A program made the translations under genes and the position numbers. A stretch of 64,000 nt of DNA from Cyprinodon diabolis (taxonomy: Eukaryota > Chordata > Actinopteri > Cyprinodontiformes > Cyprinodontidae), in the NCBI GenBank assembly GCA_030533445.1, contig CM060070.1, positions 31,172,001 to 31,236,000 on the forward strand. Reading direction: 5' to 3'. Of the stretch, positions 2,491-64,000 are shown piece after piece. Below the pieces are notes generated by a model. That model had not been told where the DNA came from. It made no database searches and was given only the letters and a program-made list of their open reading frames with translations. The first letter of the stretch is position 1; each line of letters begins with the position of its first letter.

Positions 2491-2599
2491 ACTGGACATC
2501 TTACTGAGGTTCTACTGCGCACCGCATCGGGCAGGCTGTGATCTTCTCCTGTCTGTCTGCAATCAGCATAGAGCTCAAACTCCTCCCTCGCTCCCTCTA

Positions 2600-5253
2600 C
2601 TAACCAACCAATCAGTGATCTGGAAACTGGAGAGAAAATATCGCTCCACAGGCCTGCGGGAGACCTTCCTAGTCTGGAAAAATGGTTCACTGCTGTATAA
2701 GAGGACCCTTTGTAAAGCAAGAGCAGCATACTTCTCCTCATTAATAGAGGAGAATAAGAATAATCCTAGATTTCTTTTTAATACAGTTGCCAAACTCACC
2801 CAGAGCCATAGCTCTGTTGAACCGTCCATTCCACCTGTTCTTAGCAGCGATGATTTTATAGGATTCTTTATAAATAAGATTGATCTTATTAAAAATAAGA
2901 TCATAAGCACTCCTCTATCCGCGATTGTACCTGAGGTAGTCATGGAATCTGAACCGGGTTTAGACTGCTTTGATCCAGTTGAACTTTCTGAATTAGCAAA
3001 ATTATTGTCTTCATCTAAGCCTTCAACTTGTATGTTAGATCCAGTTCCAACCAGGTTATTTAAGGAGGTATTCCCTTTGATCTCCTCCTCCATTTTAGAT
3101 GTGATTAATCTATGTCTGTTACAGGGATATGTACCTAAAGCTTTTAAGGTTGCTGTAATTAAACCTCTGCTTAAGAAACCGTCTCTTGGCCCAGATGACT
3201 TGGTCAATTATAGACCTATATCCAATCTTCCTTTCTTATCCAAAATTCTTGAGAAAGTAGTTGCCAAACAAGTTTGCGATCACTTACACCATAATGAACT
3301 TTTTGAAGAGTTTCAGTCTGGCTTTAGAGCTCATCATAGCACTGAAACAGCTCTGGTGAAAGTCACTAACGATATTCTCATGGCCTCAGATAATGGACTT
3401 GTATCTGTGCTCGTCCTGTTGGATCTCAGTGCTGCATTTGATACAGTTGACCATGATATTCTTTTAGAAAGACTTGAATATTTTGTTGGAATTAAAGGAA
3501 CAGCACTAGACTGGTTTAAATCTTATCTATCTGATCGAATTCAGTTTGTTTATGTTAATGATAGATCTTCAACACGCTCAAAGGTTACCTGTGGAGTACC
3601 ACAGGGATCAGTGCTAGGACCAATTCTCTTTACTTTATACATGCTCCCAATTGGTAGAGTTATTAGACAGCATGGGATTAATTTTCACTGTTATGCTGAT
3701 GATACCCAGCTATATCTGTCTATAAATCCAGATGAAGCTAACCCATTACATAGATTACAGGCATGTCTTGAAGACATAAAAACCTGGATGACTCTTAACT
3801 TTCTGCTTCTGAATGCAGACAAAACAGAAGTTATAGTCTTTGGACCAGAGTCTCTGAAAAAGAAGCTGATTAGCCAGTCACTTCATTTGGATGGAATTAA
3901 ACTGATTTCAGATAATAAAGTAAAAAATCTTGGTGTTGTTTTTGATCAGGACCTGTCATTTAAATCCCATATCGAAGAGGTTTCTAGAATTTCCTTCTTT
4001 CATCTGAGGAACATTGCAAAAATTAGAAATCACCTGTCCAGGTGTGATGCTGAGAAACTAGTTCATGCATTTGTTACTTCAAGGCTGGACTATTGTAATT
4101 CTTTACTATCAGGAAGTCCACAAACTGTAGTTAAAAGACTTCAGCTGATCCAAAATGCTGCAGCCAGAGTTCTGATGAAAATTAAAAAGAGAGATCATAT
4201 CTCTCCTATCCTGGCTTCTCTTCATTGGCTTCCTGTTAAATCAAGAATAGAATTTAAAATCCTCCTTCTCACATATAAAGCCTTAAATGGCCAAGCTCCA
4301 TCTTATATCAGAGATCTGATTGTTCCTTATGTTCCTAACAGAGCACTTCGCTCTCAATCTGCAGGTTTACTAGTGGTTCCTAGAATTTCTAAAAGTAGAA
4401 TGGGAGGCAGATCTTTTAGTTATCAGGCTCCTCTCCTGTGGAAACAACTACCAGTTTTAGTCCGTGAGGCAGACACCCTGTCTACTTTTAAGGCTAGACT
4501 TAAAACTTTCCTTTTTGATAAAGCTTATAGTTATGGTGGCTCAGGTTATCCTGGGCTATCTCTATAGTTATGCTGCTATAGGCTTAGACTTTTGGAGGAC
4601 ATAGGGACCCCCATTTCATCATTCTGCTTCATTCTCTCTCTGTTCTCCTATTCTGCAGAATCTGTTAGTTCAATCTCTAACCTTCTGCTCTCTCTGCTTT
4701 TCCTCAGAGTAGCTTTGCCTCATCTGTTCCTGTTTGGCTGTGACGTCATCCTGGAAAGAAATATCAGCTGTGCTGCTTCCATTAACACCCTTGTTTATAG
4801 ATGTTGGAGATCGGCCTGTTTTCCAGTGTGGTCCTGTTTCTCTGACCGTGACTGAGTGGATGTGCTCTCTTCGTCCTCTGGCATGGGAGCTGCCTTGGAG
4901 CTCGTCTGCCTGGCTGTGTGTTTCCTGGACAGGGCCGCCTTTTACAGCTGCTTTTTGTATCTCTGCTTCTGTCTCCTTGAACCCCAGTCGGCCTCGGCAG
5001 ATGGCCGCTCACACTGAGCCTGGTTCTGCTGGAGGTTTCTTCCTGTTAAAAGGGAGTTTTTCCTCTCCACTGTCGCTACAAGCATGCTTAGTGTGAGGGA
5101 TTGTATTTGAGTCAATGAGTCAATGCAATCAACTGGTTTTCCTTAGATAGAAAACTTTGTATCAATTTGACTGTATGATCTGGTTGAACTGTAAAGTGCC
5201 TTGAGATGACATGTGTTGTGAATTATAATATATATATAAATAAAATGAATTGA
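2600..5253 (+). mobile_element. 5'-truncated L2-clade LINE
   Basis: A reverse-transcriptase frame (2615-4567) is followed by about 690 bp of 3' UTR. The UTR has the familiar fish L2/Maui tail: TTCTTCCTGTTAAAAGGGAG near 5038, AAAGTGCCTTGAGATGACAT near 5194, and a terminal TAAATAAAATGAATTGA. The endonuclease domain is absent, so the copy is 5' truncated; the exact left border is unclear. It lies in the unc13a intron at the left edge, antisense to the gene. Confidence 0.88.
2615..4567 (+). CDS. L2-type reverse transcriptase, 650 codons, 5' incomplete
   Basis: Non-LTR reverse transcriptase motifs appear in order: [31 protein letters not shown] (motif A Asp), [17 protein letters not shown] (motif B) and [12 protein letters not shown] (catalytic YADD). 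The C-terminal block [32 protein letters not shown] and [10 protein letters not shown] is typical of the L2 clade. The frame stays open upstream to 2492, but no endonuclease is seen. No internal stop is present over 650 codons, so the copy is fairly young although it cannot mobilise itself. Confidence 0.92.
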
Positions 5254-10911: not shown

Positions 10912-51173
<40,262 letters not shown>

Positions 51174-57470: not shown

Positions 57471-57543
57471 ACTGGATGGTGAGACAGAGAGTCACAACTA
57501 ATTGTTCAAGGGGACAAATCACCACTGCTCTGGATGCAGTTCA

Positions 57544-57700
57544 TCCATGGAAAACCCATTTCATGAAACCATGTTCTTAAACTAATCTGAATTCTTCATT
57601 ACATTTGAAAGGTCTGTAGCTACTGACTCTTCAGGAAGCCGCTGACCTCTTCCAACCACGAGCCTCATCATCTACTGACCTCTGCTGAGGGTCTGATGTC
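57544..57700 (-). mobile_element. degenerate Tc1-like transposase fragment
   Basis: The sequence aligns by eye with about 150 bp of the intact element near 63,146-63,300: both contain CATGG-AAACCCATT, GGTCTGTAG and TGACTCT followed by GACCTCTTC. It has many substitutions and no inverted repeats nearby, so it is an old relict of a related family. Confidence 0.65.
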
Positions 57701-59099
57701 ACCAACCATTTTGTAAAAGAGTCATTGTCATCCCAATCTGCTTCCATTCTGTCATTAGACCAAGTACCAGTTGGATGTAAAATATTTAGTAGTGGGAACA
57801 TCCAGTGATATGGAGGAATTACCCATTACTGCTATCAATATAGTGTAATCTTCTAAAAGTATATCAACATACTGTACAGATCAGTCTCGTTGAGGTCTTT
57901 AGAAGTCTCCTTTTCATCATAACACAAAGCAGAAAGAGTTTGAAAGAAAAGGCATGGATAAATTCCTGTAAAACATGTTTGATCATTCCCCTTTCATCAT
58001 CTGAATCGATCATCACCAACGCTTCAACAACCAATCAACCCCAAAAAGCATTAGATTAATAACCGGAAGGACTCAAGTTACATAAATAAAGAGGATCTTC
58101 ATATTTCTCCTCAAATAATTTCAATGTTAATGCATGCAAATCAAAATGGCTTCCTGAATAAAAAGTAAATTGCTGTCAGCAGCTTCTTTAATCATTTATG
58201 TATGTATCTGTCCATGGTCAAAAAAGTGTTAGACATTGAGTCCACTTGCATTAGTTTTATGTGTCTGTTTTACACTGCTACGTTTACTTAGACCAATTTA
58301 AAATAAACCTATTCAGCTCTTGACATAAAATAAAAGGACTTTATCAACTTGATGTTCATAAGGCTTCAATTGGCTCTCTTTAAATCCACACCCTTAAAAG
58401 ATTGCATCTCCTTTCAGATCTAAACTCTGTTTCGATATAGGCTATCACCAGAGAATTACAGCACCCAGTTGTAGGAAAAGCAGCAAAAACAGTTTATACA
58501 GCATTGAGCTAAGTGAAGTTTACATCTTGATTAAGTATATCTGTTTGACAGAGGTCGCCAGGAGCACACCACTGGACTAATCTGTAATATCGATCCAGTA
58601 GGAGCAGTGCCAGGTTCTGTAATATCCTGCAGAAGAGTCATTAGACACTTTCTTTGGGGGAAGTGTGGTAAAAAAGGCAGATGCATTAAAGAAATTCAGA
58701 ATTTAGAACCGTATCTGCACTCTTTTCACACCAAGAACATGTATATTGCATTTTTAACTTTCTACACAGCATTCCCTAAAATGTTCTCTTGAGCTATTTT
58801 AAATGTTCAGACCAGCTGGTGGAGGAAACTGACAGAACATCATGCCAAGACATTATACTGTTAGACGCTCCTTACCTCCAACACACAACAATGACATTTC
58901 TTATGAGCTGCTTTAATCCAGGGTCCAGCTACTTCACTAGTTCCCTAATTGGTAGAGATGATCTTTGCAAAGCCCAGCCCAGGGATGGAGAGCAGCTGGG
59001 CTGGAGGTGGGTAAAACCAGGCGTCGCTGTTCAGTAGCGGCAACGTTGCCCGGCTGGCTTCGAAACAGCTAGTAAAAAAAAAACACATAAATGAAAATA
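57701..59099. other. first-intron sequence downstream of the promoter
   Basis: AT-rich, no exon recognised. I searched the minus strand for a start exon resembling MSLLCVGV and found none. Confidence 0.45.
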
Positions 59100-60924: not shown

Positions 60925-63723
60925 TCATAATTTCTCGCTGACAAGGAACAGAGATGAAAATATGACAGAAAACTAGAGATAGTATCTGTGGCATAAAAAG
61001 TGATATAGGAATGAATTTCTTTCTGTTCTGTTTTCAACCTACATGCCAGGAAACCCAACTATAGAAGGTTTGGATTCTCAAATATTAAACAGGAGATTGA
61101 TGGAAACAACCTAACAGCCATTTGTATGTCGTTTTTAATGTTGTTTTTTTTTTACATATATAAAATGAAATTACTACAATGCAAACATAAAAGACTAAGG
61201 GATTAATCTGCTTATGAAAGATACAATATTTAAAATTCTAGCAAATGTTTTTGCTTTTTTAATGTTCTGACTTAAGTTGGTTAGACATAAAAGTCTTCCT
61301 AAAGGGAAACACAAAGATAAACTGGATTATAATAGATGTTTAGTAAAGCACAAATTTCCATTTTTTATATTTCTACTGCCTCAAATTATGAAGTAATCTT
61401 TACCTGTCCAGATGAGAAAAGACCTCATGAAGTTGGCTGAGGAGAGTGCGGTGTTTCTGAGGATTTCCCTCCAGGACCCCACTGAGTCGACTCAGGTATG
61501 AGTCAAGATTACCAAGAGATGCTGTCTCCCCTGTACCTGTTGAGGCATTAAAATACCAAATAAACATTTTGTTTAAACATATATTTTAAACTCTAATAAG
61601 ACATAACGCAACTTTGGAGGTTTGTTTAAACTGAAAATTAAAAAAAATACGTCTATCCAAATTGTCCATCATCTCCTCCCCATGTGGCTGACATAATGCT
61701 TCTGACCTGGCAGAGGGACTGTGGACAGGCTGCTGACCAGCGTGTGTTTAATGGCCAGCAGGTGTGAGTGAAGAGCCTGGGTACGCTTTTCATCCTGCCC
61801 CAATTCAGCCTCCAGACGTTCTTTAGCGCTGTTCATATCATTGATGTGGCGCTGCAGCATAGCGTTCTGCTCTTCAAACTCAATGTTTGCCTTCCGAAGT
61901 CGGCGCAACTCGGCCTCTCGAGCTAAAAAAAACAAAGAAGACTTAAGTTTCGTCAGGACAAACCCTTACCTTTTATGCATTTTAAGAATTAGTTGGTATT
62001 TTTTCTAAATTTAAGTTTCTTCATTGGACAGTTATCTTGTTTGAGTGTCTGTTACCTTTATTCTGATCGAGGAACTCTTCGGTGAAAATTGGAATGTCAA
62101 ATCTGCTTGAGAGCTCAGGAGCCTAAAACAGACATAAAAAAACAGCCTGATAACTTAGATTTTGATGTATGAAATGAATAAAATAAACCTCGTATGGTCG
62201 CCTACCTTCATTAAAGACAATCCTGAACTTGTACTGACAACAACCGGTAGACTGTCTTCTGAAACATGAAATTGGAACTGTAGATGCTTTTTTTTTTCTT
62301 CCATGGCACATATCAACATTACTGGACTTCATGTATAAGAGGTCAGCTTTACCCTTTTTAATCTTCTTGTCATGTACACTATATTGCCAAAAGTATTTGC
62401 TCACCTGCCTTGACTCACATATGAGCTTAAGTGACATCCCGTTCCTAATCCATAGGGTTCAATATGACGTCGGTCCACCCTTTGCAGCTAGAACAGCTTC
62501 AACTCTTCTGGGAAGGCTGTCCACAAGGTTTAGGAGTGTGTTTATGGGAATTTTTGACCATTCTTCCAGAAGCGCATTTGTGAGGTCGCACACTGATGTT
62601 GGACGAGAAGGCCTGGCTCTCAGTCTCCGCTCTAATTCATCCCAAAGGTGTTCTATCGGGTTGAGGTCAGGACTCTGTGCAGGCCAGTCAAGTTCATCCA
62701 CACCAGACTCTGTCATCCATGTCTTTATGGACCTTGCTTTGTGCACTGGTGCACAGTCATGTTGGAAGAGGAAGGGGCCAGCTCCAAACTGTTCCCACAA
62801 AGTTGGGAGCATGGAATTGTCCAAAATGTCTTGGTATGCTGAAGCATTCAGAGTTCCTTTCACTGGAACTAAGGGGCCAAGCCCAGCTCCTGAAAAACAA
62901 CCCCACACCATAATCCCCCCTCCACCAAACTTTACACTTGGCACAATGCAGTCAGACAAGTACCGTTCTCCTGGCAACCGCCAAACCCAGACCCGTCCAT
63001 CAGATTGCCAGATGGAGAAGCGCGATTCGTCACTCCAGAGAACGCGTCTCCACTGCTCTAGAGTCCAGTGGCGGCGTGCTTTACACCACCGCATCCGACG
63101 CTTTGCATTGCACTTGGTTATGTATGGCTTGGATGCAGCTGCTCGACCATGGAAACCCATTCCATGAAGCTCTCTGCGCACTGTTCTTGAGCTAATCTGA
63201 AGGCCACATGAAGTTTGGAGGTCTGTAGTGATTGACTCTGCAGAAAGTTGGCGACCTCTTCGCACTATGCGCTTCAGCATCCGCTGACCCCGCTCCGTCA
63301 GTTTACGTGGCCTACCACTTCGTGGCTGAGTTGCTGTCGTTCCCAAACACTTCCATTTTCTTATAATACAGCTGACAGTTGACTGTGGAATATTTAGGAG
63401 CGAGGAAATTTCACGACTGGATTTGTTGCACAGGTGGCATCCTATCACAGTTCCACGCTGGAATTCACTGAGCTCCTGAGAGCGACCCATTCTTTCACAA
63501 ATGTTTGTAAAAACAGTCTGCATGCCTAGGTGCTTGAATTTATACACCTGTGGCCATGGAAGTGATTGGAACACCTGATTCCAATAATTTGGATGGGTGA
63601 GCAAATACTTTTGGCAATATAGTGTATCTTGGCACTGGTGATGTGGTACGCCTCAGTCTGTTGATACTCCTTCAGTTCTTGGGCATATTGCACCTTATCT
63701 CGCTCCGCCTCATCAAGATAGCG
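60925..63723 (-). CDS. hmg20b: hmg20b (BRAF35), last six exons, interrupted by a Tc1 insertion
   Basis: HMG20B is a nuclear HMG-box protein of the LSD1-CoREST-HDAC (BHC) complex that helps repress REST-controlled neuronal genes. Exons: 63627-63723 continuing after the transposon at 62353-62376 ([10 protein letters not shown], end of the HMG-box region); 62206-62258; 62056-62122 ([15 protein letters not shown]); 61707-61922 (coiled coil, [20 protein letters not shown]); 61404-61536 ([20 protein letters not shown]); 60937 down to the stop at 60925-60927 (ends SEKL). The order and the [10 protein letters not shown] wording match HMG20B better than HMG20A. All phases agree once the transposon and one TA are removed. 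As written, the allele reads from K-I into the transposon inverted repeat and stops about 33 codons later. Upstream exons are beyond the window. Confidence 0.9.
62377..63624 (-). mobile_element. complete Tc1-like (DD34E) transposon inside an hmg20b exon
   Basis: The element is 1,248 bp. Both ends begin CACTATATTGCCAAAAGTAT and the terminal inverted repeats are identical for 29 bp. A TA dinucleotide flanks each side (62375-62376 and 63625-63626), the expected Tc1/mariner target duplication. It carries a full-length open transposase frame on the minus strand, the same orientation as hmg20b. The identical ends and intact frame point to a recent insertion. Confidence 0.97.
62459..63490 (-). CDS. 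Tc1-like transposase, 343 aa, intact
   Basis: This is a cut-and-paste DDE transposase that binds the terminal inverted repeats and integrates at TA. The start chosen is [10 protein letters not shown]; the frame stays open 38 codons further upstream, but that part lies in the element's end region. N-terminal helix-turn-helix segments (about residues 5-110) include [20 protein letters not shown] and the GRPRK motif. The catalytic triad is in [16 protein letters not shown] and [10 protein letters not shown], with 34 residues between the last Asp and Glu. There are no internal stops or frameshifts. It belongs to a family very common in bony fishes. Confidence 0.95.
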
Positions 63724-64000
63724 CTGTCAGTAATCACACAATGTTGAGCTGTTATAATAAAAACAACTAAACTGCTCTCATGGAATTGATAATTTTTTTT
63801 GTATATCTATTAAAGGTATTGTGGAGGATTCTTTAAAAGACCCCCCTACCCACTTAAAAAACATGCTCATGCTAGAGCATTTAAAATGTGCTGTTCTCAT
63901 AGCTCATACAAGCTTACAGTGTCCACATCCAGCGGGGACTATATAGTGGACTCTATAGCAAACCCACTTAACTGACCATTCCACAGATGATCACTGCTTT

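Follow-up and report, generated by a model that had tools for sequence, protein, structure and literature searches.

A complete Tc1-type transposon in a coding exon of hmg20b

Close to one end of the 64,000-nucleotide stretch of DNA analysed here, in the following referred to as the window, the coding sequence of a gene resembling hmg20b breaks off within an exon and resumes on the far side of a transposon. This arrangement raises the question whether a mobile element has truly entered the exon and what would remain of the function of the allele. We consider it probable that a Tc1 element has genuinely inserted into a coding exon of hmg20b, giving what is most likely a loss-of-function allele. 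This reading draws on the perfect repeats of the element, the duplication of its TA target, an empty site that is in frame, intact downstream exons and uninterrupted homologues of 98% identity, and also on an intact transposase that is 2 of 343 residues away from a Cyprinodon variegatus protein, a stop codon after 32 residues and a structural model of the break site.

The interrupted gene and its empty site

The part of hmg20b contained in the window comprises the following features:

62353-63723, (-): interrupted coding exon of hmg20b with a host part of 121 nt (splice sites, phase, frame, homologues)
62206-62258, (-): next exon, 53 nt, intact, resuming in phase 1
62056-62122, (-): exon, intact (splice sites, frame)
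61707-61922, (-): intact exon that codes for the greater part of the long coiled-coil helix (splice sites, frame, predicted model)
61404-61536, (-): exon, intact (splice sites, frame)
61259-61298, (-): alternative terminal exon, 13 residues and stop, the ending of the homologues P0001 and P0002
60925-60937, (-): terminal exon, SEKL and stop (frame, homologue alignment)

The interrupted exon is bordered by an acceptor ending in CTGACAG before position 63723 and a donor of the sequence AAAAGG/GTAAAG after 62353, and its host pieces span 63625-63723 and 62353-62376, with the TA counted in both. Removal of the element and one TA leaves an exon of 121 nt (40 codons and one base) that ends in phase 1, where the next exon resumes, as had been claimed in a sequence-only reading of this locus, which described an empty site of this length with intact frame and the right phase. 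From here the host frame stays open through five downstream exons, which have AG acceptors and GT donors, to the stop at 60925, encompassing 603 nt and 200 amino acids. The claim of the same reading that all other exons are intact holds for these five exons and does not extend to the 5' exons, which account for about 94 residues outside the window. The coding sequence for the first 94 residues of P0002, with the start codon and the larger part of the HMG box, would lie past base 64000. Of the HMG box, only the last part falls within the window, where it matches the end of the structure 2crj.

The identification of the gene as hmg20b, already made from the sequence, agrees with its best listed matches and with an alignment with fish HMG20B. 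The 200-residue host protein has 744 protein matches, and among the best 120 of these several are named fish 'High mobility group 20B'. Its coiled-coil half finds its best matches in HMG20B-named fish proteins among those listed, as expected for an HMG20B orthologue. The closest listed matches, P0001 and P0002, share 98% identity with the host protein across 98% of its length and carry the sequence SAKIHDKKIKK uninterrupted; in each of the 12 homologues that were aligned out of the 744 matches, the residues flanking the insertion point directly adjoin each other. Of the mammalian string quoted in the sequence-only reading we found close forms only, with rodents containing TEKIQESKIKKED, Xenopus AEKIQEKKIKK and a partial chimpanzee record stopping at TEKIQ. 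Within the first 195 residues, P0001 and P0002 each differ from the host protein by 3 substitutions; beyond these residues the C-termini diverge by the choice of terminal exon, and both C-terminal endings are available in the window. P0001, P0002 and P0004 lack one residue at position 41. This position adjoins a splice acceptor for which a site three bases further on could be used instead, and such a NAG-type alternative acceptor of the exon 62206-62258 may explain the absence of the residue. The small number of substitutions, and a coding sequence of 603 nt whose frame and splice sites show no further disabling change, both speak against the alternative that another hmg20b is functional and the present copy is a pseudogene or a duplicate that can be dispensed with, which we regard as very improbable.

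The inserted element and its age

The exon is occupied by an element with the following parts:

62377-63624, (-): Tc1-type DD34E transposon of 1,248 bp, in the same orientation as hmg20b (repeats, domains, triad)
63596-63624: terminal inverted repeat of 29 bp facing the 5' part of hmg20b (end comparison)
62377-62405: terminal inverted repeat of 29 bp facing the 3' part of hmg20b (end comparison)
63625-63626: TA target-site duplication, copy 1
62375-62376: TA target-site duplication, copy 2
62459-63490, (-): intact DD34E transposase reading frame, 343 amino acids and stop (domains, triad)

The description of a 1,248-bp Tc1 element flanked by TA turned out to be exact base for base, in both coordinates and arithmetic, and a comparison of the ends confirmed that the 29-bp inverted repeats are identical (31 nt with the TA included), while no inverted repeat longer than 29 bp was found when the first 240 bp were compared end to end. 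The TA duplication and the terminal inverted repeats at both ends are those of DD34E elements of the Tc1/mariner type. Tc1 and Sleeping Beauty preferentially target ANNTANNT, which among the 7 TA dinucleotides of the exon is matched by the used TA only. This match and the adjacency of the flanking residues in 12 of 12 homologues speak for an arrangement beyond chance. Most probably, a complete DD34E Tc1-type DNA transposon jumped by cut-and-paste into a TA of a coding exon in an otherwise intact-looking hmg20b of a pupfish-like killifish. Given the repetitive nature of Tc1 copies, the misjoins that can occur in draft assemblies and the second Tc1-type element located in the same window, it is conceivable that the assembly has misplaced the element into the exon. 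A misjoin would however not be expected to leave the TA duplicated at both edges, the repeats complete at both ends and the host frame resuming exactly, and we consider such an artefact extremely improbable.

The transposase contains the triad D154, D245 and E280, with 34 residues separating the second aspartate from the glutamate as is typical for DD34E proteins, and its domains HTH_SB, HTH_Tnp_Tc3_2 and DDE_3 (PF25787, PF01498, PF13358) all score above the respective cut-offs. With its 343 residues and its paired HTH and DDE domains, it conforms to a transposase of about 340 amino acids. Its best match is P0121 from Cyprinodon variegatus, a Tc1-like transposase of 354 residues and 99% identity (341 of 343 aligned residues are identical and 2 differ), which belongs to a 74-member cluster and is known from a protein record. 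Taken with the hmg20b match, it suggests that the host is a pupfish or a killifish close to one.

Among proteins of solved structure, the closest relative by sequence is the Sleeping Beauty transposase SB100X. The element has the DD34E triad, the domains HTH_SB, HTH_Tnp_Tc3_2 and DDE_3 and the TA duplication in common with fish DD34E/Tc1 transposons of the Passport and Sleeping Beauty group, whereas its repeats of 29 bp are short compared to those of Sleeping Beauty, which are long and contain inner direct repeats. To our knowledge, apart from Passport, the other eleven elements known to be active in their natural form do not originate from fish. Twelve such elements are named in an excerpt of PMC7731502, where Passport is the one assigned to fish. 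The ends of the element read CACTATATTGCC, compared to CAGTG in Passport and CAGTT in Sleeping Beauty, both as given in an excerpt of PMC7093834. An assignment of the element to Passport was rejected, as its ends are CACTA instead of the CAGTG listed in this excerpt.

The identity of the repeats had initially been taken as a sign of recent insertion. Using mutation rates between 2e-9 and 1e-8 per site and year and two assumed indel ratios, we calculated 95% upper bounds for the age of the insertion. The identical repeats alone would allow 5.2-25.9 Myr, which makes them uninformative as indicators of recency. The intact host frame allows 3.2-22.5 Myr and the intact transposase 2.3-18.1 Myr, and a combination of all evidence of intactness lowers the bound to 1.1-7.2 Myr at the same rates, so that the insertion can be called recent in a loose sense only, with a bound of about 1-7 Myr.

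Predicted consequences for the protein and possible removal by splicing

Translation of the occupied exon leads to an early termination:

63526-63528, (-): earliest stop in the reading frame of the occupied exon, preceded by 32 residues that the transposon encodes (translation)

The mRNA of the occupied haplotype would thus read into the element and meet a stop after 32 foreign residues. On the assumption that the 5' exons are like those of P0002, the predicted product has 159 residues. Stop codons located far upstream of later exon junctions generally elicit nonsense-mediated mRNA decay. Since the stop precedes the donor of its exon by about 1.17 kb and five exons follow, decay is expected, and the mRNA of the occupied haplotype would probably be destroyed.

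To locate the break within the protein, we used a structure prediction of P0002 calculated with 32 aligned proteins chosen from the matches listed for the host protein and for the truncated query (mean pLDDT 75.8, pTM 0.37). The model contains predicted helices at residues 53-68, 74-87, 90-135, 166-239, 256-269 and 275-300, and the HMG box is placed by Pfam at 47-114. The break after residue 127 is positioned past the HMG box and before the long predicted helix 166-239. Any protein made would thus most likely retain the HMG box and lack the coiled coil that recruits LSD1, and the loss of the coiled coil, as proposed in the sequence-only reading, is supported by frame and predicted model unless splicing removes the element. 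In human cells, HMG20B without its coiled coil fails to pull down LSD1, whereas mutants without the HMG box do so (excerpt of PMC7613766), and residues 173-317 are described as necessary and sufficient for the role of HMG20B in cytokinesis (excerpt of PMC4614378). By analogy to the human protein, both results support a loss of function.

A search for an annotated truncated protein resulted in 157 matches to the query, with a top coverage of 82% of the query among the best 120 of the 157. When the foreign tail with three host residues was compared to 353 listed matches of the hmg20b, transposase and truncated queries, no HMG20B protein matched; the five proteins that did (P0122, P0128, P0133, P0168 and P0210) all come from the transposase matches. 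The putative truncated product is hence without corroborating annotation among the matches listed.

In C. elegans, Tc1 elements residing in exons can be spliced out, and an equivalent process could in the present case remove the element like an intron and restore a working or partly working protein. The best in-frame route, scored with approximate site frequencies, connects the last exon base 63548 (CAG/GTGTAT) to the first exon base 62378 (ATATAG/TG). Such a junction would excise 1,169 nt and retain 27 additional in-frame residues between the HMG box and the coiled coil. The scores of donor (5.7) and acceptor (2.4) resemble those of the weak sites of the exon itself (5.1 and 2.6), and in the predicted model the 27 residues would be accommodated near the end of helix 90-135, beside a stretch of low confidence. 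Among the 4,030 GT-AG pairs of the occupied exon, 22 are in frame and free of stops, and each of these 22 removes at least 80% of the element. The same best route was obtained when the element was placed in silico at all six TA sites of the exon that allow it, the seventh being too near the exon end, whereas in the opposite orientation the score at the used site drops from 8.1 to 1.1. Conversely, the best in-frame score is reached by 79 of 400 shuffles of the whole element and by 132 of 400 shuffles of its interior and is thus not beyond chance, and with the frame ignored the best splice score is reached in 269 and 265 of 400 cases, respectively. Moreover, a near-consensus donor in the 3' repeat (CAG/GTGAGC, last exon base 62405), which with a score of 11.2 is the top-scoring donor of the exon and exceeds the five authentic donors (5.1-8.6), would favour wrong products. 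We thus regard the restoration of a functional protein by splicing as unlikely.

Skipping of the interrupted exon alone shifts the frame into stops, and skipping it together with the next exon would keep the frame (121 + 53 = 174) but cost the protein the last part of its HMG box. An ATG in the 3' end of the element, at 62437 (-), shares its reading frame with the rest of the exon to 62353 and with the next two exons, and translation from there would add 20 further foreign codons before continuing with HDKKIKKEDS. From the sequence it is conceivable, albeit improbable, that the element has recast the gene, either by a new intron leaving the 27-residue insert or by the ATG at 62437 starting an HMG20B devoid of its HMG box. 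Copies of the element residing in sense orientation within other genes would equally bring along the donor CAG/GTGAGC.

Known parallels and surroundings of the locus

An inactivating Tc1 insertion in hmg20b, which we consider the best explanation of the locus, is an event of a kind that has long been known and that proceeds by an ordinary mechanism, in a case that is cleanly preserved. The exonic Tc1 alleles of C. elegans Bergerac likewise contain a complete Tc1 in a coding exon with predicted disruption, and an excerpt of PMC9635669 reports 190 exonic insertions observed in strain RW6999. The present case differs from these alleles of sequenced strains in its element and in having a vertebrate as host, and it comes from a single haplotype in one assembly. 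An excerpt of PMC7731502 names Cyprinodon variegatus as one of eight fish that all four of the compared sibling families have invaded. For a pupfish host, this would mean a lineage known to be rich in such elements, in which an exonic insertion would be unsurprising. No comparable case in fish was found in the titles and beginnings of abstracts of the papers listed in the literature searches. In a preprint on the Devils Hole pupfish (PMC13277993), hmg20b does not occur in the main text, and the genes of the lethal haplotype named in its abstract are MIB1 and MMP16.

The locus shows a full-length Tc1-type element that has inserted naturally into a conserved chromatin gene and whose insertion can be read with precision, and the worth of the case depends on allele frequency, zygosity and RNA. 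If polymorphic, the insertion would provide a ready natural knock-out of HMG20B and evidence for the movement of a DD34E element in this fish lineage within a few million years. If fixed, it would signify the loss of a segment that is kept in 12 of 12 aligned homologues.

The window contains further mobile sequences:

about 41271-42499, (+): second Tc1-type element with an intact transposase of 346 amino acids and a spacing of 36 (DD36E)
57531-57767, (-): decayed sequence related to the inserted transposon (71% over 162 nt and 38% over 53 amino acids)
2492-4567, (+): stop-free frame of 691 amino acids with a reverse transcriptase domain (PF00078)

The end repeats of the second Tc1-type element are alike at 28 of 30 positions, and in length, triad and repeat length it fits the Incomer family as described in an excerpt of PMC6875036. 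The stretch CACTATATTG near 57.85 kb may represent the end of the decayed relative, and the frame at 2492-4567 probably belongs to a LINE-type retrotransposon. Scans of the 64-kb window with Rfam at gathering scores and for tRNAs found nothing, and a search of viral contigs gave 2 pattern matches and no relatives. Finally, a start reading MSLLCVG is located at 58897 (-), 2,028 bases downstream of the hmg20b stop, and open frames extend over 30690-40383 (-), which together presumably resemble unc13a.
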